From assembly GCA_021793595.1 (NCBI GenBank), contig JAJYSL010000219.1:1-7163 (forward strand): a stretch of DNA of 7,163 bases, in the 5' to 3' direction. Shown in pieces: positions 1 to 7,163 of this stretch. The stretch is from Acidobacteriota bacterium (GTDB lineage Bacteria > Acidobacteriota > Terriglobia > Terriglobales > Acidobacteriaceae). The notes under the pieces are model-generated. The model was not told the DNA's origin. It did no database searches and was given only the letters and a program-made list of their open reading frames with translations. Made by a program: the position numbers and the translations under genes. Position 1 is the first letter of the stretch. Every line of letters starts with the position of its first letter.

Positions 1-10
1 GCAGTCGCCC

Positions 11-451
11 TCAACGGACAGGTGGAAGACGCTGCTGGACTACATCGTGGCCAGAATCATTCCGCATAGGCCCCAAAAACTCCTCAAAACATCTGCGCTT
101 CTGGCTAGCAACTGCGGTTTTTAGGATAATAAGCAGAATGCGGAAATATTTACGCAGCGTGGCAAGGTCTGCGGTCGCAATCATCCTCCCGATCCTCGAC
201 CGCAATTCCTCTTCAGAATCGGCCATACCATCGCTGTTGAAGATTTCGAGGAGCGGAACGTCAAGCGCCGCCGCAATTTTTGAAAGCTGTTCAAGCGGTG
301 GCCATTCGATCTCGCCGGTTTCCACCCGGCTGATATAGCCGTTGTCCCGATCGACGCTCTCGGACAATTTAGCCTGGGTCAGACCTCTGGCATTTCGCAA
401 TTCTGCAATGCGTGCCCGAAAACCTCGTGCGTCCTTGGAATCTGAACCCAT
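11..451 (-). CDS. XRE-family helix-turn-helix transcriptional regulator
   Basis: This 146-residue protein is probably a cytoplasmic DNA-binding regulator. Residues about 11-71 form an XRE/Cro-CI-type helix-turn-helix domain: an arginine-rich first helix (FRARIAELRNARG), the LTQAKLSE helix, the recognition region DNGYISRVETGEIEWP and the closing helix LSKIAAALDVPLLEIF. The remainder (about 75-146) starts with an acidic stretch (DSEEELRSRIGRM), then a hydrophobic helix (YFRILLIILK), and I recognise no family there. It may serve dimerisation. The ATG at 449-451 is the first start and has no visible Shine-Dalgarno sequence. The gene is transcribed away from the plus-strand regulator at 689-970, from which it is separated by a gap of more than 200 nt. 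It does not resemble the two sister XRE proteins in this window beyond the generic fold. Its target and ligand are unknown. Confidence 0.85.
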   Translation of the reverse strand: MGSDSKDARGFRARIAELRNARGLTQAKLSESVDRDNGYISRVETGEIEWPPLEQLSKIAAALDVPLLEIFNSDGMADSEEELRSRIGRMIATADLATLRKYFRILLIILKTAVASQKRRCFEEFLGPMRNDSGHDVVQQRLPPVR

Positions 452-457
452 TTTTTG

Positions 458-463
458 ATATTA
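458..463 (-). promoter_or_regulatory. Possible -10 element of the 11-451 regulator (leaderless candidate)
   Basis: Read on the minus strand the hexamer is TAATAT, one base from the consensus TATAAT, and it ends 6 nt before the ATG at 449-451. Transcription would therefore start at or next to the start codon. This would give a leaderless mRNA, in agreement with the absence of a ribosome-binding site. No convincing -35 element is visible, so this is a tentative call. Confidence 0.3.
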
Positions 464-632
464 AGCAGTTATTTGTTGGACTTCTTCGAAACTCGCACAT
501 AGACCTTTTTATGCCGAACGATTAGCGGCGAGGATTTTCGGGATGCTCGCCACTTCAACTCTCCACTCTCGATAAATGCCTTATTCCTGCTTGCTTTGCA
601 ATAGAGAGATCGAATCGCAAAAACCTTCGAGA
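464..632. other. Divergent intergenic region with no gene recognised
   Basis: This stretch separates the minus-strand regulator from the operator of the plus-strand regulator. I see no supported coding region, RNA gene or terminator hairpin. A weak inverted pair, TTTGC at 595-599 and GCAAA at 617-621, is present but too short to interpret. Confidence 0.4.
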
Positions 633-660
633 CAATATAGCAACCATAGTTGCTATATTG
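633..660. promoter_or_regulatory. Operator-like 12-bp perfect inverted repeat (site O1)
   Basis: The left arm CAATATAGCAAC (633-644) and the right arm GTTGCTATATTG (649-660) are exact reverse complements around a 4-nt spacer CATA. The inner core, CAAC-CATA-GTTG at 641-652, is the same as the core of two sites in front of the sister regulator at 1741-2010, apart from one C/T change in the centre. It ends 36 nt before the GTG at 689. The site contains possible -10 hexamers for the downstream gene (CATAGT at 645-650 or TATATT at 654-659), though no good -35 is seen. A bound repressor would block transcription. The likely binder is the XRE protein made by the downstream gene, as autoregulator; this is inference from position and repetition. 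Confidence 0.75.
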
Positions 661-688
661 CTTGCGATTATCGGAAGACGATGACTAT

Positions 689-970
689 GTGGCGAAACCC
701 GTCGGAGCAGACAAAAAGCGCAAGGCTACGACGCCCAATCAGGTGTTTGGCAGGGCGGTGACAGAAAAAAGGGTGTCACACAAGCTATCGCAAACCACCT
801 TGGCTGCTGTGCTCGGGTATAGCAACTACTACTTGGGCAAAATAGAACGCGGCCAAGCAAATGTGACTTGCGATGTGATGTCTGCGATTAGCAGCTATTT
901 CCGAATGTCAATCGCGGAATTTTGGATTTTCGCGGAGTCCCTGCCGAAGAAGACGGCGGTTCAAAGGTAA
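689..970 (+). CDS. Small XRE-family regulator, sister of the protein at 1741-2010
   Basis: From the GTG at 689 the product is 93 residues. It opens with a basic segment (KPVGADKKRKATTPNQVFG), then a Cro/CI-like helix-turn-helix: LSQTTLAAVLG, the recognition region YSNYYLGKIERGQANVT, and the helix DVMSAISSYF. It ends in an EFWIFAESL motif. The protein at 1741-2010 shares all of these blocks almost without gaps. GTG is preferred because similarity between the sisters weakens upstream of it and GGAAG lies at 673-677. The in-frame TTG at 650 falls inside the operator and has no ribosome-binding site. The conserved D-x-[YF] just before the valine leaves an upstream start possible. The gene ends tail-to-tail over the PIN toxin gene, with a 10-nt overlap. 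Probable role: autoregulated repressor, perhaps cross-talking with its sister. Confidence 0.78.
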   Translation: MAKPVGADKKRKATTPNQVFGRAVTEKRVSHKLSQTTLAAVLGYSNYYLGKIERGQANVTCDVMSAISSYFRMSIAEFWIFAESLPKKTAVQR

Positions 971-1404
971 AGACCAAATCCATTTCCGCCTTGAAGTTGC
1001 ACAATGGTCAGACCGGGAATCATTTGGAAGTGCCGAAGATTTTTGGTCGCGAGGTTATACCCATAGGATAGTGCCGTTGCGCCGATCAATAGATCAATGC
1101 CGGGAATCGTGAGGCCAAGAGCGCGTTGTTCTCCATCAATCCGGCCTGCCCGAAATGCGGCATCCGTCGCAAATGGCAAGATTTCCATGTCGTTAAGTAG
1201 GTTCTGTATGAAGATTTCTCTACGATTCCGTAGCGCGTCGGTGGGCGCTCGATAGATGGCGTGAACCATTTCGGAAAGACCGACAGCAGTAAGCGTGACC
1301 CGCTGATTCCCGCACTGGCTGACGATTCCGCGAAAAAACTCTGCAACAGTTTGCCCGCTCCGCTCGGCAGCAATGACGACGCTGGAGTCGAGAACTAGTC
1401 CCAT
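961..1404 (-). CDS. vapC: PIN-domain toxin of a type II toxin-antitoxin pair (VapC-like)
   Basis: The 147-residue protein has the full pattern of a PIN-domain ribonuclease. Asp6 sits in the opening strand (GLVLDSSVVI), Glu45 in LSEMVHAI, Asp104 in IPGIDLLIGATAL, and a closing ATKNLRHF motif supplies the usual T/N position (Thr120/Asn122). These acidic residues bind Mg2+ or Mn2+ in the family, whose members cleave tRNA or other RNAs when free of antitoxin. All expected residues are present, so the toxin looks intact. The length is at the upper end of the usual 125-150. Its ATG (1402-1404) lies inside the end of the antitoxin gene with a 10-nt overlap, which fits translational coupling and co-expression. 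The RNA target cannot be told from sequence. Confidence 0.9.
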   Translation of the reverse strand: MGLVLDSSVVIAAERSGQTVAEFFRGIVSQCGNQRVTLTAVGLSEMVHAIYRAPTDALRNRREIFIQNLLNDMEILPFATDAAFRAGRIDGEQRALGLTIPGIDLLIGATALSYGYNLATKNLRHFQMIPGLTIVQLQGGNGFGLYL

Positions 1405-1676
1405 TCTGGAAGGCCCAGAGGTTCCTTTCGACTTGCAATCACATCTTCAAGATCTTTGGAAAATCCCTCGTCAAGCGTAACGTTTATTCCCCGGGCTTCA
1501 GATAAAGCGATCATCTCCGACAAGAGATGACCGGGCTCCCGATGCGCCACCGGAGAGAGCTTTGCGATTGGTCGTGCGTCCGATTCGATCACCACATCCA
1601 AGCCGTCTCGGATTTTCGCCAGCACATGCTGGAAATCTCGTACCGCCTCAGCCTCCGAAATGTGGATCGTCGCCAT
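1395..1676 (-). CDS. vapB: Antitoxin of the PIN toxin pair (Phd/YefM- or VapB-like)
   Basis: The 93-residue protein precedes and overlaps the PIN toxin gene. Its N-terminal half (MATIHISEAEAVRDF, then LAKIRDGLDVVIESD and RPIAKLSP) matches the Phd/YefM-type DNA-binding fold, with the typical strand carrying R-P-I-A-x-L. The C-terminal part (DEGFSKDLEDVIASRKEP and a final WD) is of the kind that wraps the PIN toxin and covers its active site. In this family the antitoxin neutralises the toxin by direct binding, represses its own promoter together with the toxin, and is degraded faster than the toxin. The ATG at 1674-1676 is well placed, although no strong Shine-Dalgarno sequence is visible. It lies 64 nt after the XRE gene at 1741-2010 on the same strand, so some read-through from that gene is possible. 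Confidence 0.87.
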   Translation of the reverse strand: MATIHISEAEAVRDFQHVLAKIRDGLDVVIESDARPIAKLSPVAHREPGHLLSEMIALSEARGINVTLDEGFSKDLEDVIASRKEPLGLPEWD

Positions 1677-1692
1677 ATATTTTAGGATACTT

Positions 1693-1710
1693 CATTTGCC
1701 AGGCGAAATG
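1693..1710. promoter_or_regulatory. Possible operator of the antitoxin-toxin pair
   Basis: An imperfect inverted repeat, CATTT-GCC-A-GGC-G-AAATG, lies 16 nt upstream of the antitoxin start. On the minus strand a TAAAAT hexamer (1679-1684) between the repeat and the ATG could be a -10 box. Phd/VapB-type antitoxins usually bind such repeats to control their own promoter. No poly-T run follows, so it does not look like a terminator of the preceding XRE gene. Confidence 0.35.
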
Positions 1711-1740
1711 CGGCCTATGGAGATTACTGAAAAGAATGGG

Positions 1741-2010
1741 TTAGCTTGGCGACAGACTCTCCGCGTATGCCCAAAAGTGGCTCAGAGGCAGCATCTCGTA
1801 ATACCCAACGATTGCGTACATAACGTCAAAAGAGAAATTCTCTTTGCCTTGTTCAATATTTCGTAGGTAAAACTCATCACACCCGACCTTCGCCGCAACT
1901 TCACCCTGGGAAACATTTCTGTCGACGCGGAGTCGTGTGATTGCCGCACCAAACACCTCCCGTGGAGTTGTAGATTTTCGGGTTTTATCAACGCCGATAG
2001 GCTTGGGCAC
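1741..2010 (-). CDS. Small XRE-family regulator, sister of the protein at 689-970
   Basis: From the GTG at 2008-2010 the product is 89 residues. It aligns along its whole length with the plus-strand sister: KPIGVDKTRKSTTPREVFG, the helix-turn-helix VSQGEVAAKVG and DEFYLRNIEQGKENFS, the helix DVMYAIVGYYEM and the closing FWAYAESL. One residue is inserted before the FW. The usual XRE signature (Q, A, G, Y, I-E-x-G) is kept. The alternative in-frame TTG at 2047-2049 lies within an operator palindrome and overlaps a likely -10 box, so it is unlikely to be translated. No strong ribosome-binding site is visible before the GTG. The gene is divergent from the sigma-factor gene and shares its control region, so this protein is the best candidate repressor for both itself and the sigma operon (inference). 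Confidence 0.8.
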   Translation of the reverse strand: MPKPIGVDKTRKSTTPREVFGAAITRLRVDRNVSQGEVAAKVGCDEFYLRNIEQGKENFSFDVMYAIVGYYEMLPLSHFWAYAESLSPS

Positions 2011-2046
2011 AAACCCATCGTGCGCCCGAGAATTCGATTGAAATAG

Positions 2047-2058
2047 CAACTATAGTTG
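2047..2058. promoter_or_regulatory. Operator-like perfect palindrome (site O2)
   Basis: CAACTATAGTTG is a 12-bp perfect palindrome. With its flank it reads ATAGCAAC-TATA-GTTG, which matches site O1 over 15 of 16 bases. On the minus strand it ends exactly 36 nt before the GTG of the XRE gene at 1741-2010, the same spacing as O1 to its own gene. It contains a TATAGT hexamer usable as a -10 box for the minus strand. Confidence 0.75.
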
Positions 2059-2078
2059 TGTATAGTCTGTTTTGACAA
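2049..2078 (-). promoter_or_regulatory. Candidate promoter of the XRE gene at 1741-2010
   Basis: On the minus strand TTGTCA (2078-2073) is followed after 18 bp by TATAGT (2054-2049). Both are close to the sigma-70 consensus. The -35 overlaps site O3 and the -10 lies inside site O2, so a protein on either palindrome would compete with RNA polymerase. The predicted transcript starts near 2042, about 30 nt before the GTG start. Confidence 0.5.
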
Positions 2079-2085
2079 CTATAGT
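2056..2085 (+). promoter_or_regulatory. Candidate promoter of the sigma / anti-sigma operon
   Basis: TTGTGT (2056-2061) and TATAGT (2080-2085) are separated by 18 bp. The -35 begins in site O2 and the -10 is inside site O3, a mirror image of the promoter on the other strand. The transcript would begin near 2092, leaving a leader of about 60 nt before the ATG at 2154. The -35 is weaker than on the opposite strand, so the call is tentative. An additional promoter recognised by the ECF factor itself cannot be ruled out. Confidence 0.4.
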
Positions 2086-2088
2086 TGT
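2075..2088. promoter_or_regulatory. Operator-like perfect palindrome (site O3)
   Basis: ACAACTATAGTTGT is a 14-bp perfect palindrome with the same CAAC-TATA-GTTG core as O2. Its centre is 29 bp from that of O2. It lies 65 nt upstream of the ATG of the sigma-factor gene and contains TATAGT, a possible -10 box for the plus strand. The same protein presumably binds both sites. Confidence 0.72.
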
Positions 2089-2144
2089 GCTCTGATCCCA
2101 CAATCAAACCCGTTACCGAAACGCTCTCACTTCTTGTCGGTACG

Positions 2145-2149
2145 AGGAG
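2145..2149 (+). promoter_or_regulatory. Ribosome-binding site that decides the sigma-factor start
   Basis: AGGAG lies 4 nt before the ATG at 2154. The longer in-frame reading from a TTG at 2085 has no such site and begins inside operator O3, so translation from 2154 is favoured. Confidence 0.7.
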
Positions 2150-2153
2150 AGCA

Positions 2154-2843
2154 ATGACCTCGGAAGCCGTCTCCTATTTCCCAAACGCGATAGTGCCGGA
2201 GACTGCCGATTCCGCTGTTTCCCAGAGCGTAGCGATCAAAAACGCCCCTCAACCCGTTCTCCCCATCTGCGAAATCTCAGACGAAGAATTACTCCAACGC
2301 ATAGGGCAACGGAATCGAGAATCCCTTGCACTGTTGTTCCGGCGCTACGCTCGGACAGTGCGCAACATCGGCTGCAAGATTCTGCGGAATGAGGCCGAGG
2401 CCGACGACCTGCTCCAGGATGTATTCCTCTTCATCTTCGAGAAGGCCGGCCAATTCGACCCCAGCCTGGGCAGGGCCGGAACGTGGATCGTTCAGGCAAC
2501 GTATCATCGGGCTTTCGATCGGAGACGGTATCTCAACGCCCGGCATTTCTACAGCAGCGAAGCATTGGAAGAATCAACGTTGCGGATCACCGCGCCTTAT
2601 CAGCCTCCGGTCATGGAACAGTCGATGCAGGGCATCCTGGGCAAAGTGCTGCTAAAAAGATACAACGACGCGCTCTCCATCGATCAGCGCCGGGTGATTG
2701 AACTTCATCTCATCGAGGGATACCCGCTCAAGGAAGTTGCGGAAATCACGCAGCAGTCTGTCACGAATGTACGAAGCCATTACTATCGCGGGCTGGAGCG
2801 GCTGCGGCGTTTTGTTCTACCGGGAAGTTATAGATTGAAGTGA
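2154..2843 (+). CDS. ECF-type RNA polymerase sigma factor (sigma-70 family)
   Basis: The 229-residue protein has the two conserved regions of group 4 (extracytoplasmic function) sigma factors. Region 2 spans about residues 42-127: DEELLQRIGQRNRESLALLFRRY, the core-binding helix with EAEADDLLQDVFLFIFEKAGQFD, then the GTWIVQATYHRAFDRRRYL segment that contacts the -10 element. Region 4 spans about 172-220 (LSIDQRRVIELHLIEGYPLKEVAEITQQSVTNVRSHYYRGLERLRR), a helix-turn-helix for the -35 element. An N-terminal extension of about 40 residues has no recognised motif. It would recruit core polymerase to promoters activated when the adjacent anti-sigma factor releases it. The TGA stop overlaps the GTG of that gene by 4 nt, indicating coupled translation. 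It is divergent from an XRE repressor candidate, which shares its control region. The target genes are not visible from sequence. Confidence 0.92.
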   Translation: MTSEAVSYFPNAIVPETADSAVSQSVAIKNAPQPVLPICEISDEELLQRIGQRNRESLALLFRRYARTVRNIGCKILRNEAEADDLLQDVFLFIFEKAGQFDPSLGRAGTWIVQATYHRAFDRRRYLNARHFYSSEALEESTLRITAPYQPPVMEQSMQGILGKVLLKRYNDALSIDQRRVIELHLIEGYPLKEVAEITQQSVTNVRSHYYRGLERLRRFVLPGSYRLK

Positions 2844-4144
2844 GAGATATCGATCTTATTCCCAACAGCGAAGGAGCGCCGCCGTTGCCGCCCCATCCGA
2901 GCCATGACGAGTTCATGAGACTGTGTGCCCTTTCCAGGACTGGGGAGCTGACTGCCGACGAGCAATCGCAACTCCGCGAACACCTGTTCCATTGCGATGC
3001 TTGCAGGGAAGCCCGGCGCGAGTACGAACAGGTCATCGATTCCGTTTTGCCCGCCATTGCCGCCGAAAGCGCAGCGGGGATCGGGACGGATACGGAAACT
3101 TACTCATGGTCCATCGAACAAGCGGAAGAAAGACTCCTGAGCGCTATCCACGCAGCTCCAAAGTCCACAAAGGGACGTACATCTCCTCGCTCAATCTCAT
3201 CGCTTGGAAAACGGGCGATCGGAGTCGCCGCTATTATTCTGCTCACCATTTCAGCAGCTACGATTGGATATTGGTCGGGATTTCATGTACGCAGGCCCAC
3301 GCCGCGACTCCTCACCCATGCCTCGCCAGCTTCGATAGACACTGGCACGACCGCACCGATCTCGACGTCGACCAAGGTTCCCGTTGCGAAACAATCAGAA
3401 GCGGATCTCCTGGCTGTCGCTACGCTGCGCAAACGGCTGGCTCACCAGCAGTCTCGCGTCTTTGCTCTTGAACATCAGCTCGATCAAGCCACGGAGGAAT
3501 TACACGAACAAGCGGACGTTCTGTCCGAGTTCAACTCGGACCGCGATCAACTGAATCAGCAAGTGGCCCTGGCGGACACTGAGAGAAGCGAGTTGCAGAG
3601 CAAGTTAACGGCGATGCAAACGCAGGTCCAGAACGATCCCGCCCAGTTCAGCTCATTGCACGCAGAGGTGATGGTTCTCGACTCGCTGATCGATGAGAAA
3701 AACAAAATCATCGCCCAAGACAAGGAATTACTTCAGCATGATCGTGATATTCGCAACCTGATGGGTGCCCGCAATCTTTACATCGCGGAAATCTATGACG
3801 TGGCCAAGACTGGAAACACGCGTAAACCGTTTGGCCGGATTTTCTATACGCGGAACAAATCTCTGATCTTCTATGGCTTCGATCTCGACCACCAGCGCGG
3901 GGTGAAAAACACCAGCGTGTTTCAGGCATGGGGCCGCAGTGACACGGCTCATGATATAAATCTCGGAATCTTCTATCGGGATAAAGTAAGCAACGATCGT
4001 TGGATATTGAGGTTCAACGACCCGGCGGCTCTTGCTCATCTCCAAGCCGTGTTCGTAACCATAGAACCACGGGGAGGGAGCTTAAAACCAAGCACCAAGC
4101 CCATGCTGTTTAGTTATCTGCGCCTCACGCCGAACCATCCCTAG
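2840..4144 (+). CDS. Membrane-anchored zinc-finger anti-sigma factor with RskA-like C-terminal domain
   Basis: The 434-residue protein begins with a cytoplasmic zinc-binding anti-sigma domain (about 20-70). Its H-x3-C-x2-C motif is His48, Cys52 and Cys55, in EHLFHCDACRE. One transmembrane helix follows at about 126-146 (AIGVAAIILLTISAATIGYW), after basic residues, so the rest lies outside the inner membrane. A Thr/Ser/Pro-rich linker (150-185) leads into a long predicted coiled coil (about 190-305) rich in Leu, Gln and Glu. The last 95 residues match the RskA-type C-terminal domain (FQAWGR, NLGIFYR, WILRFNDPAALAHLQAVFVTIEP, GGSLKPSTKPMLFSYL). In such proteins the N-terminal part sequesters the sigma factor and the outer part senses a signal, often ending in proteolysis. 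GTG 2840 is chosen because of the 4-nt overlap and the complete zinc-finger domain. The long coiled coil is unusual in length. Confidence 0.88.
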   Translation: MRDIDLIPNSEGAPPLPPHPSHDEFMRLCALSRTGELTADEQSQLREHLFHCDACREARREYEQVIDSVLPAIAAESAAGIGTDTETYSWSIEQAEERLLSAIHAAPKSTKGRTSPRSISSLGKRAIGVAAIILLTISAATIGYWSGFHVRRPTPRLLTHASPASIDTGTTAPISTSTKVPVAKQSEADLLAVATLRKRLAHQQSRVFALEHQLDQATEELHEQADVLSEFNSDRDQLNQQVALADTERSELQSKLTAMQTQVQNDPAQFSSLHAEVMVLDSLIDEKNKIIAQDKELLQHDRDIRNLMGARNLYIAEIYDVAKTGNTRKPFGRIFYTRNKSLIFYGFDLDHQRGVKNTSVFQAWGRSDTAHDINLGIFYRDKVSNDRWILRFNDPAALAHLQAVFVTIEPRGGSLKPSTKPMLFSYLRLTPNHP

Positions 4145-4255
4145 CTACCGGCCAAGCAACTTCTCTCCTCAATTTTATTGCTGTCACAGTCTGGCAATCC
4201 CTCGACGTATATGAGGCGAGCCCCTGCATCGCCCGATCCACCGAGGAGACCAGCC
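4145..4255 (+). other. Gap between anti-sigma and receptor genes, with ribosome-binding site
   Basis: The 111-nt gap has no clear terminator hairpin with a poly-T tail, so the receptor gene may be co-transcribed with the sigma and anti-sigma genes. AGGAG at 4244-4248 stands 7 nt before a TTG at 4256 and sets the receptor start. Longer in-frame readings from TTG 4178 or ATG 4211 lack a ribosome-binding site and would put a charged, proline-rich leader in front of the signal peptide. Confidence 0.55.
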
Positions 4256-6298
4256 TTGAAGTGTTTGTGTGCTTTTTTTCTCAGCCTGACTATGTTGTGC
4301 TTCACGTTCTCGTCATTCGCGCAATCCACCACGGCAACGATCAGCGGCCTTGTGGTTGATTCGGGCGGTGCTGTGCTTCACAACGCCGACGTGCAAATCC
4401 TGAACGAAGATACTGGCATTCAGTACGACAGCAAAACCAACAATGTCGGCATTTATGCCGTGTCGATTCTCCCACCGGGCCATTACCGGGTCCAGGTGTC
4501 TATGGACGGCTTCAAAACCATCATTAAGTCCGACATCACGTTGAATGTTCAAACCGCTCTTGCCCTGAACTTCACGCTGCCGATTGGCGCAGTCTCCGAA
4601 AGCGTGACTGTAAAGGGTGGGTCGTCGCTACTGAATACCACGAGTTCTGCTGTCAGTACCGTCGTCGACCACAAGTTCGTTCAGAACATGCCTCTGAATG
4701 GGCGTAGCTTTCAAGACCTGATCTCCATGACACCAGGCGTCGTCACGGGCAGTCCGCAGAGCGGTGAGGGTGTAGGACAACAAGGCGACTTCAGCATCAA
4801 CGGCCAACGGACAGAATCAAATATTTATTTGGTAGACGGGGTATCGGCAAACATAAATCCTGGCTATCCGAACGGATTTCCTCAAGCCGGCACAGGCGGG
4901 ACCATTGCGGCAGGAACAGCACTTGGAACGACCCAGAGTCTGATCCCGGTCGATGCTCTTCAAGAATTCCGAATCAACAGTTCGTCCTACTCCGCCGAAT
5001 TCGGACAGTCGCCGGGAGGACAGATTTCTTTTTCCACCCGGTCCGGCACCAATATTTTGCACGGAACGGTGTTTGAGTATCTCCGCAACGACGTCTTCGA
5101 TGCGAACGATTGGTTCAATGACCATAACGGAGCACCCAAAACTGCCATTCGACAAAACGACTTCGGAGGCACCTTCGGCGGCCCCATCGTAATACCGCAT
5201 CTATACGACGGCCGGGACAAGATGTTCTTCTTCGCGGCGTATGAGGGACTTCGCCTCGTCTTACCCACGGCTGCTACCACGACGGAATACGTTCCGTCCC
5301 TCGCGGTTCGCGAGAATACGCAACCGGCGCTCCAGCCGATCTTCGATGCGTTTCCACTGCCGACCGACCCGGAGGTACAAATCGCATGTAGCTCCGCACA
5401 GGCTAATTGTCCGAACGGCGCGCCTCCAGGCACGCTGGTTCCCAGTGGACTGTCTCCCTTCGTCAAAAGCTACTCCCTTCCGGCAACCATCGATAGGACC
5501 TCGATACGGATCGATGCCCACTTGTCGAGCCAGCACAGCGTTTTCTTTCGATTTGGAGACACGCCCACCTCCGCCAGCAACAGAAACCTTTCCGCGGTCA
5601 GTCAGCGGCAGGTCGACACAACGACCTATACTTTTGGCGTAAACAGTCAGCTAACTAACTTTTTAAGTAACGAATTTCGATACAACTATGCTTCCAGCCA
5701 GTCAGCGAATCCGACGGCGGTGGATGACTTCGGCGGAGCGAAGCCGGAAAACCTGGGGAACCTCTTTGGGATTCCCAACTCTTACAAAAACATTCTTCCA
5801 TACCCATACATTGATATTGTCGGGGTTGGGACGTCTTATATCTACTCCGAAGACGTGAATAACCGCCTCTCTCAACAAAACCTCACGGACACAGTTTCTC
5901 TTGCCATGGGACATCATGCTCTGCAATTGGGTATCAACTACCTCCATTTGTCCTCTCCTTTGAATCCGGCATCCATTGAGGCGCTGGGCTTCTTCTTTAC
6001 GCGGCAGCAAATGCTGTCGAATATCACTGACGAAACTCAGATCACAAAGAACGTGTCATCGATACCCGTTTTCAATCTATTTGCCGCTTTCGTCCAAGAC
6101 GAATGGCAGATCAATCCGAAATTGACGGTTTCGATGGGCCTCCGATGGGATCTTAACCCACCTCCCTCGGAGGCCAACGGCAACAATGCCTATACGCTAC
6201 GCGGAAATATCAGCGATCCCGCGTCACTTTCTGTCGCCCCTCAAGGCACCCCTCTGTGGCACACGGTATGGCATAGCTTTGCGCCTCGACTCGGGTAG
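4256..6298 (+). CDS. TonB-dependent-receptor-like outer-membrane protein, N-terminal part (frameshifted)
   Basis: From TTG 4256 this part is 680 residues. Residues 1-22 are a signal peptide (a lysine, a hydrophobic core, then SSFA before QS). A carboxypeptidase-regulatory-like beta-sandwich follows (about 26-112; TISGLVVDSGGAVLHNADVQI and LPPGHYRVQVSMDGFK). The plug domain covers about 128-270 (MPLNGRSFQDLISMTPGVV, INGQRTESNIYLVDGVSAN, EFRINSSSYSAEFGQSPGGQISFSTRSGTN). Barrel strands begin after that (FEYLRNDVFDANDWF, RQNDFGGTFGGP, FFFAAYEGLR; later FVQDEWQINPKLTVSMGLRWD). Such Oar-like proteins import large substrates through the outer membrane with TonB energy; the substrate is unknown. No STN signalling domain is seen. 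The frame breaks at 6293-6296 after HSFAPRLG, where TAG follows a GGG run and the family would continue with more barrel. TTG is supported by GAGGAGA upstream and by the clean signal peptide. Confidence 0.88.
   Translation: MKCLCAFFLSLTMLCFTFSSFAQSTTATISGLVVDSGGAVLHNADVQILNEDTGIQYDSKTNNVGIYAVSILPPGHYRVQVSMDGFKTIIKSDITLNVQTALALNFTLPIGAVSESVTVKGGSSLLNTTSSAVSTVVDHKFVQNMPLNGRSFQDLISMTPGVVTGSPQSGEGVGQQGDFSINGQRTESNIYLVDGVSANINPGYPNGFPQAGTGGTIAAGTALGTTQSLIPVDALQEFRINSSSYSAEFGQSPGGQISFSTRSGTNILHGTVFEYLRNDVFDANDWFNDHNGAPKTAIRQNDFGGTFGGPIVIPHLYDGRDKMFFFAAYEGLRLVLPTAATTTEYVPSLAVRENTQPALQPIFDAFPLPTDPEVQIACSSAQANCPNGAPPGTLVPSGLSPFVKSYSLPATIDRTSIRIDAHLSSQHSVFFRFGDTPTSASNRNLSAVSQRQVDTTTYTFGVNSQLTNFLSNEFRYNYASSQSANPTAVDDFGGAKPENLGNLFGIPNSYKNILPYPYIDIVGVGTSYIYSEDVNNRLSQQNLTDTVSLAMGHHALQLGINYLHLSSPLNPASIEALGFFFTRQQMLSNITDETQITKNVSSIPVFNLFAAFVQDEWQINPKLTVSMGLRWDLNPPPSEANGNNAYTLRGNISDPASLSVAPQGTPLWHTVWHSFAPRLG
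6293..6296 (+). other. Frameshift site in the receptor gene
   Basis: The upstream frame reads CGA CTC GGG TAG. With one more G the text becomes CGA CTC GGG GTA GCT TGG, giving R-L-G-V-A-W and then IVRSTPGWETVFRSGGGVFYD, the conserved continuation of this receptor family. One G is therefore missing from a G run relative to an intact gene. It can be a true mutation or a homopolymer sequencing error. Confidence 0.85.
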
Positions 6299-7155
6299 CT
6301 TGGATCGTTCGCTCTACGCCCGGTTGGGAAACCGTTTTTCGGAGCGGCGGGGGAGTGTTTTATGACACGAGCAACGAAAACGCGACACTCGGGTATTCGG
6401 GCATAGGATTTCAGGCGACGCAGGTTTATACATCCACACCCCTACCAGTCACAGCGTCGCAACTGAACTTCTCCGTGAACGCAAATCCGCCTTACACGGA
6501 TGATGTCGCATACGCGTTCCCATCCCACCTCCAGCCTCCGTACACACTCGAATGGAGCGCAGCCGTTCAACAAGCGCTGGGCAACGCCCAGACATTCACG
6601 CTGACCTATGTTGGATCGAACAGCAGACGTTTGCTGCAAGCCCAGATACAAAGTAATCCCAATTTCGAGCTGCTCTATTATTTCCCGAGCGGTCTCACAT
6701 CCAACTACGACGCGCTGGAAGTTGCGTTCCAGAGGGCAGTCACGAAGGGATTGCAAGCGCTCGCCAGTTATACATGGTCACACTCCCTGGATTACGGGTC
6801 CACGGCGACGTCCTTTCGCGCCATATACGGAAATTCGCATTTTGATATCAGAAATAACTTTCAGGCAGGTCTTTCATGGGATCTTCCTCAGTACCAACGG
6901 AATCGAATCGCAAAGATTTTCCTGGACGGATGGGGCTTGGACGGCAGGGTCAACGCTCGTACTCCATTTCCGATCACATTGACCGGAAACGCTCTGTATG
7001 ATGCATCCGGGAACCTGTATTACAGCGGCGTGAACTACAATCCTGGCCGCTCACCATACCTCCACGGAAAGCAATATCCAGGAGGAAAGGCCCTTAGCAG
7101 CCCGTGGTTAAAGTCGGTGGTTGATGCAGGACAAGTATGGGTAGAAAGCGTCTAA
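6295..7155 (+). CDS. TonB-dependent-receptor-like protein, C-terminal barrel part (after frameshift)
   Basis: Homology resumes at 6295 in the frame one base behind the N-terminal part, and gives 286 codons to the TAA at 7153-7155. The first usable start within it is GTG 6355 (266 residues), but no ribosome-binding site suits it, so it is a displaced fragment of the receptor rather than a gene of its own. Family landmarks are SGGGVFYDT, LQPPYTLEWSAAVQQALG, TLTYVGSNSRRLLQ, GLTSNYDALEVAFQRAVTKGLQALASYTWSHSLD, HFDIRNNFQAGLSWDLP and NPGRSPYLHGKQYPGGKAL. All are barrel strands and turns. Together the two parts make about 966 residues, and the usual last barrel strands and the closing aromatic residue are missing. 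The final segment after GGKAL (LKSVVDAGQVWVESV) does not resemble the expected family text, so a second frame problem is possible near 7100-7150. Confidence 0.82.
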   Translation, partial: VAWIVRSTPGWETVFRSGGGVFYDTSNENATLGYSGIGFQATQVYTSTPLPVTASQLNFSVNANPPYTDDVAYAFPSHLQPPYTLEWSAAVQQALGNAQTFTLTYVGSNSRRLLQAQIQSNPNFELLYYFPSGLTSNYDALEVAFQRAVTKGLQALASYTWSHSLDYGSTATSFRAIYGNSHFDIRNNFQAGLSWDLPQYQRNRIAKIFLDGWGLDGRVNARTPFPITLTGNALYDASGNLYYSGVNYNPGRSPYLHGKQYPGGKALSSPWLKSVVDAGQVWVESV

Positions 7156-7163
7156 CGAGTATG

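Follow-up and report, generated by a model that had tools for sequence, protein, structure and literature searches.

Phages have CI/Cro-type repressor pairs, in which two related XRE proteins share operators. Another pair of sister XRE genes, XRE-A and XRE-B, is carried by a 7,163-nucleotide stretch of DNA from an Acidobacteriota bacterium of the family Acidobacteriaceae (GenBank assembly GCA_021793595.1, contig JAJYSL010000219.1, positions 1 to 7,163 of the forward strand), referred to here as the window. Unlike the phage pairs, these sister genes are convergent or tandem, and their products are about half identical (49% over 86 columns for XRE-A and XRE-B). XRE-B is divergent from genes for an ECF-type sigma factor, an anti-sigma factor and a TonB-dependent-receptor-like protein. 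Comparison with related genomes suggests that the two proteins are probably autorepressors with a common operator, which also gate the sigma operon and the uptake and degradation of lasso peptides.

The closest described proteins are the controller (C) proteins of restriction-modification (R-M) systems and ClgR. PF01381 is over its cut-off for both XRE-A and XRE-B, and their predicted structures (predicted local distance difference test, pLDDT, 83.7 and 85.5) match XRE structures, among them ClgR and the controller proteins C.BclI, C.AhdI and C.Esp1396I. By profile, the best solved relative is C.BclI (8.3e-08), followed by C.AhdI (5.9e-06), with ClgR and others about equal. The first-pass annotation of the window, made from its letters alone, had not recognised the family as a described group, a statement that these described kin correct. 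According to the parts of the literature that deal with its sites, C.Esp1396I recognises GAC-TATA-GTC boxes (PMC3758141) and has two sites before its own operon, a high-affinity distal one that activates and a proximal one that represses, as well as one site before a convergent gene (PMC4041747). The XRE pair resembles type II controllers in being small and of the Cro/CI type, in an operator with a TATA centre and GAC/GTC-like halves, in the layout of two sites plus one and, in the window and in genomes G001, G002 and G089, in the convergence of the two genes. It differs in that the second-gene site belongs to a sister regulator, in that the main class of operators (class 1) has AAC-TATA-GTT at a spacing of 28-29 bp, not GAC-TATA-GTC about 4 bp apart (near GAC/GTC outer bases are found only in L078), and in its neighbours: type II restriction endonuclease or methyltransferase genes were found neither among the window genes nor among 10 neighbour genes of three loci, which held type I and type IV genes only. 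The pair is therefore C-protein-like and not a C protein, since box centre and layout are strikingly alike, but the spacing differs and no type II R-M genes lie among the genes scanned.

The second described counterpart is the astexin/sphingopyxin type of lasso-peptide cluster. Relatives of the window likewise hold B1, B2, cyclase, isopeptidase-like, receptor, sigma and anti-sigma genes. The passages of PMC9266682 on such clusters present a GntR-like regulator as constant and give no XRE pair, whereas here small XREs lie on the far side of the sigma gene, and the operon also contains genes for an APH-like kinase and a prolyl oligopeptidase. The same passages call the role of isopeptidase-type lasso peptides enigmatic and state that their expression seems strictly regulated (PMC9266682). 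A search of open-licence PMC texts, with subscription literature outside its scope, found no paper on XRE control of lasso clusters or on XRE pairs there. Autoregulatory XREs are themselves known; what appears to be new is their occurrence as sister pairs on lasso clusters. If this is true, a dedicated operator with two named regulators would be a direct handle for waking such clusters, and pairs with different operators in one layout would form a natural series for the co-change of repressor and site after duplication.

A putative palindromic operator before the paired XRE genes

Twenty-six homologous genes, chosen by protein similarity alone, constitute class 1: 11 A-type and 11 B-type genes in pairs (the window included), three lone A genes and one B fragment. 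In all 26, CAACTATAGTTG with at most two mismatches lies 36-37 nucleotides (nt) before the start codon; the palindrome is thus conserved, and its distance from the gene that it precedes is fixed. The first-pass annotation had asked whether homologues carry the palindrome 30-45 nt upstream and took its absence elsewhere as a refutation; every one of these close homologues carries it within that range. A second copy (at most one mismatch) is found at 64-66 nt in 12/12 B genes, in none of the 11 paired A genes and in two of the three lone A genes. The distal site is exact in 10 of the 12 B genes and the proximal one in 4; proximal and A sites vary mostly in the half pointing away from the gene.

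In the window, CAACNNNNGTTG occurs at the three operators given in the table, with centre CATA before XRE-A and TATA at both sites before XRE-B, and again at 3991-4002 with centre GATC. These four CAACN4GTTG matches compare with 0.11 expected, and none of 200 shuffles reaches four. The fourth copy was not taken as an operator because it is coding, lying inside the anti-sigma open reading frame (ORF), and because its centre is outside the YATA core. The positions of the three CAAC-YATA-GTTG cores reported in the first-pass annotation were borne out, as was its gap of 36 nt between core and start in both genes, which is exact because XRE-A begins at GTG 689 (plus strand) and XRE-B at GTG 2010 (minus strand). 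The 36 nt in between had been described as diverged, and this holds only in part, since GTTGCTAT at the site and ACGATG are kept in both genes; the ATG of the latter, common to both leaders, lies 8 nt ahead of the GTG. In many A and B genes of class 1 (680-688 and 2011-2019 in the window), an ACGAT element stands a few nt before the start codon, where a Shine-Dalgarno sequence is expected.

The operator is confined as well as conserved. A search for exact CAACTATAGTTG in 14 genomes returned 20 sites in 13 of them, all preceding an XRE gene, against six matches for the pattern read backwards. Nineteen are ahead of class-1 genes and one, in G006, is ahead of another small XRE. The latter site lies exactly 36 nt before the first gene (PF01381, 2.3e-13) of a tandem pair of small XREs of a different subfamily (L082, 6842-7655). 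When a 14-mer with one mismatch was searched in seven genomes, 18 of 19 sites were at class-1 genes (control, 10), the remaining one (G145) being inside a 909-codon ORF that is MutS-like by eye. With exact sites confined to XRE genes in the genomes covered, the operator appears to act at these XRE promoters and not in a wide regulon.

The proteins are of limited occurrence. An alignment of 42 sequences, including both window proteins, separates an A type and a B type, and a scan of genome contigs yielded eight loci, with A and B genes side by side in 8/8 genomes. An order-wide scan of 397 genomes (E 1e-12, at most 13 candidates scored per genome) gave matches in 21. Close full-length members are present in 13, as a pair in 10 and as an A-type gene alone in three (G126, G145, G208); in G334 a fragmentary B gene stands at the end of a contig, and the other seven hold more distant matches only. 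The two genes converge in the window, G001, G002 and G089, and G003 to G008 and G062 have them in tandem; in G089, B is broken by an in-frame stop after 71 codons. Named carriers include Granulicella mallensis X5P3 (L002) and Granulicella sp. S156 (L004). Among viral contigs, 15 pattern matches were obtained, none of them encoding a relative of XRE-A or XRE-B. Upstream regions of distant relatives (L035, L036, L038, L039) contain ACTATAGT-centred sites with other outer bases, GTACTATAGTAG and GAACTATAGTTC, and no lasso homologues were detected around the distant-relative loci fetched (L071, L072, L074, L075).

Thirty-five pairs were compared for a shared upstream motif, L102 having been left out of 36, as both of its genes read from one intergenic region. 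The motif is shared within the pair in 23, of which 21 score above the highest shuffle (11.5) and two (L001, L119) were added by inspection of the upstream operators; two pairs are mixed (L068, L070) and one is borderline (L100). The score misjudged L001 and L119, where the ORF start was too far upstream, and L002 and L078, where the best match was in coding sequence; operators are present in all four. Non-cognate comparisons also score high (83/288 reach at least 10), since one operator class may turn up at several loci. Class 2 (L106, L109, L113, L119, L122) has GGCACTATAGTGCC, with at most two mismatches, twice upstream of the gene on the sigma side and once upstream of its partner, and all 11 exact copies of GGCACTATAGTGCC in six genomes are at class-2-type XRE genes. 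L078, the second such cluster in G005, has AGACTATAGTCC and GTACTATAGTCC; CCCGTAATCTCATTCGGTG is common to L094 and L110, and ATGATCTNGGAGNTCAT and TACTCCAAAATGGATTA are found in L108 and L114, respectively. In both mixed pairs, the A-type gene is of class 1 and has two class-1 sites, and its neighbour, a gene of the class-2 type, has two class-2 sites; operator class thus follows protein class, as autoregulation predicts. In the tree, the A and B proteins of a class form one group, with support of only 0.44 for class 1 and of 0.78 (class 2), 0.93 (L100, L108), 0.90 (L078) and 1.00 (L114), and mean identity is 0.44 for A1-B1, 0.34 for A1-A2 and 0.24 for B1-B2 (numerals denote the class). Repeated duplication, or conversion within pairs, could be behind this pattern of pairs and operators.

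Predicted promoters, sigma operon and lasso-peptide genes

With offsets and spacers left free, the promoter search found in 12/12 B loci a sigma-70-like promoter directed away from B, with its -35 at the same offset and the proximal operator inside its 17-nt spacer. Its fit to the consensus is 10/12 bases in nine loci, 9/12 in one and 8/12 in two; three of the 12 loci (G006, G007, G334) have no sigma gene in view, and in the other nine the likely sigma start is 123-201 nt from the B start. Toward B, the -10 element is the TATAGT-like centre of the proximal operator, and a -35 element with three to five matching bases is at or near the distal operator. A -10 within each palindrome for both directions was considered and dropped, since away from B a -10 between the two sites fits better. 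As the proximal operator sits in both predicted divergent promoters, one dimer on it would block both directions.

The order sigma, anti-sigma, receptor recurs beyond B in 9/11 pair loci. As for the other two, L007 begins 245 nt before B, and L006 has no sigma, anti-sigma or receptor homologues in the 20 kb covered, the Pfam matches of six neighbours being of other kinds or none. In relatives, the operon continues with a gene for an isopeptidase-like protein, which among NCBIfam models fits the Atxe2-type lasso isopeptidase best (1e-46 in one locus, 1.4e-54 in another). Facing it are genes for a PqqD-like B1 protein, an APH-like kinase, a prolyl oligopeptidase, lasso_biosyn_B2 and an asparagine-synthase-like cyclase, a set that is more complete in some loci than in others. 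The relatives thus carry genes by which lasso clusters are recognised: B2 (NF033537, over cut-off), PqqD, Asn_synthase and precursor-like ORFs. A B2 hit lies within about 17 kb of the XRE in 8 of the 11 class-1 genomes included in the B2 search (G001, G002, G004, G008, G062, G089, G126, G208); it is elsewhere in G006 and G145, and none was found in G003, where the contig ends. Short precursor-like ORFs, filtered for G...D/E spacing, occur in 7/10 regions; they have a Y-x-x-P leader and finish in a sequence similar to YEADE. In L083, L085 and L087-L091 such ORFs adjoin cyclase, kinase or isopeptidase genes, with a conserved end, e.g., AAYEADE. The window itself stops within the receptor gene, before any lasso gene; compared with its best match, L128, identity is 70% for the N-part of the receptor, 52% for the sigma factor and 49% for the anti-sigma factor. 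By this likeness, the window may belong to a lasso cluster.

A similar arrangement is seen in lasso-type loci at large. The isopeptidase model NF033523 was rejected as sole marker, not being specific alone, since 284/398 genomes of the family match at E 1e-20 and none over cut-off; NF033537 was then used, matching 110/398 genomes, 109 of them over cut-off. Forty further loci with an isopeptidase-model hit and a B2 hit within a few kb were chosen regardless of XREs, which were called with a model widened in two rounds. A sigma gene was recognised in 28 of the 40, and a small XRE lies on its far side in 27 of these (at least two in 22); L129 has the sigma gene and no small XRE beside it. In 7 of the 12 other loci, an ORF of about 1000 codons stands beside the receptor, with one to three small XREs 1.2-2.6 kb beyond; the L068 relative of this ORF matches Sigma70_r2. 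The last five gave no XRE by this test: L104, L107 and L133 are cut off by contig ends, L117 lacks an XRE, and L112 has two XRE hits that were not counted.

A proposed switch and its alternatives

XRE-A and XRE-B would be sister repressors of the Cro/CI type with a single kind of palindromic operator around ACTATAGT. By occupying the -10 element 36-37 nt ahead of the start codon, each would repress its own gene. At XRE-B, the distal operator and the proximal one within the divergent promoter would allow the same proteins to shut the sigma/anti-sigma/TonB-receptor operon, which in relatives includes the isopeptidase-like gene of lasso clusters; the pair may in this way set the timing of lasso-peptide uptake and degradation. 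The basis is comparative and consists of conserved sites and spacing, site confinement, synteny and overlap with predicted promoters; from these we infer binding, repression as its sign, and the sharing of sites by both proteins. The signal is perhaps the lasso peptide or its fragments. Autoregulation, already suggested in the first-pass annotation, has gained comparative support from the 26/26 sites at 36-37 nt, from exact sites occurring, in the genomes searched, only before XRE genes and from the mixed pairs L068 and L070. The annotation had further suggested that each protein could bind the other's site, although the predicted recognition helices of the two differ; it had noted neither that the B sites fall in a promoter facing the sigma operon nor that most of the family is found in lasso-peptide clusters.

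Several observations weigh against this proposal. Nine of 35 pairs share no operator; in these, A and B belong to separate clades, as they also do in L116 and L118, where a motif is nevertheless shared. The predicted recognition helices differ, in the window SNYYLGKIERG in A and DEFYLRNIEQG in B, and XRE-A has a -10 but at best a weak -35. The isopeptidase matches are below the model's cut-off, the class-1 pair of G006 is apart from sigma, receptor and lasso homologues, and the lone A gene of G145 is about 1.4 Mb from the B2 hit. In the exact CAACTATAGTTG search of 14 genomes, no site preceded lasso biosynthetic genes, which would therefore be reached only indirectly.

The alternatives concern how the proteins act and whether they belong to the clusters. 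That the pair works as R-M controllers do is unlikely, though not implausible: a dimer on the distal site would first activate the B promoter, filling of the proximal site would repress it, and the single A site would only repress. The controllers C.BclI, C.AhdI and C.Esp1396I among the nearest solved relatives, the distal activating and proximal repressing sites of C.Esp1396I, and the better preservation of the distal site all fit such a switch, but the spacing of the sites is 28-29 bp (class 1) or 23-25 bp (class 2), against about 4 bp in most C systems as far as the relevant part of PMC4321490 goes, and the proximal site lies over the -10 and not the -35. It is rather improbable that one protein alone recognises the operator and its sister modulates it, e.g., as a mixed dimer or blunted competitor. 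Recognition helices that differ within pairs although the operators are alike would be explained thereby, as would the changes of proximal and A sites in the half away from the gene; lone A-type genes, however, keep the operator without a B gene, and symmetric operators suit homodimers.

A mobile or defence-linked cassette that regulates itself and merely adjoins lasso clusters would account for the patchy occurrence in the order, the class-1 genes of G006 and G145 away from lasso genes, the vapBC-like module between A and B in the window and the restriction genes near L008 and L002. Such a cassette is nevertheless very improbable in view of the gene order repeated beyond B, the small XREs beside the sigma gene in 27 of the 28 lasso-type loci that have one and the sites within the promoter facing the sigma gene. 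It is scarcely credible that the palindromes are RNA hairpins or leftovers of common descent: the longer palindrome before XRE-A could form a stem, but the position is fixed with differing flanks in 26 genes, the sites overlap promoters, and other pairs have the same layout with another sequence. A wider proposal may be put forward tentatively, namely that Acidobacteriaceae lasso clusters are run by paired sister regulators of a C-protein-like kind forming a switch of two proteins and three operators. Separate duplications might have produced this layout repeatedly and left every pair with an operator of its own, which would keep the several clusters of one cell apart, each triggered by its own lasso peptide or breakdown products.

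Features of the window

Table. Position and properties of the operators, genes and predicted promoters in the window
Feature	Position	Strand	Properties
XRE-A operator CAACCATAGTTG	641..652		36 nt before GTG; longer palindrome 634-661 (12-bp arms); same place in 26/26 class-1 genes
XRE-B proximal operator	2047..2058		36 nt before GTG; overlaps -10 toward B, within -35/-10 spacer of sigma-ward promoter
XRE-B distal operator	2076..2087		65 nt before GTG
XRE-A	689..970	+	93 amino acids, Cro/CI-type helix-turn-helix; PF01381 9.8e-09; 50 homologues in protein search
XRE-B	1741..2010	-	89 amino acids, sister of XRE-A; PF13560 1e-06; 114 homologues in protein search
ECF-type sigma factor	2154..2843	+	PF04542, PF08281; likely ATG start (MTSEAV) by comparison, 143 nt from XRE-B start
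Anti-sigma factor	2840..4144	+	RskA_C 4.1e-06, just under cut-off; zf-HC2 over cut-off
TonB-dependent-receptor-like gene	4178..7155	+	two ORFs, 4178-6298 and 6355-7155; PF25183 in both
Predicted promoter toward XRE-B	2049..2078	-	TTGTCA, 18 nt, TATAGT; 10/12 consensus bases
Predicted promoter toward sigma gene	2038..2066	+	TTGAAA, 17 nt, TATAGT; 10/12 consensus bases

The reading frame of the receptor-like gene is interrupted at 6298-6355, its ORFs matching consecutive parts of PF25183, either by decay or by an assembly error. Restriction genes are found near two pairs, with type I genes and a type IV restriction-like gene at L008 14323-19707 and L002 12940-14775. Between the convergent A and B genes of the window (961-1676, minus strand) lie a VapC-like PIN toxin gene (961-1404) and a gene for a 93-amino-acid partner (1395-1676) that matches no Pfam family; L001 and L002 have a short gap between A and B, without this vapBC-like module. 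A third XRE gene at 11-451 of the window (minus strand, 146 amino acids) resembles by eye the second XRE of L097, L128 and L101 (FRAR..LRNA...ISRVETG).

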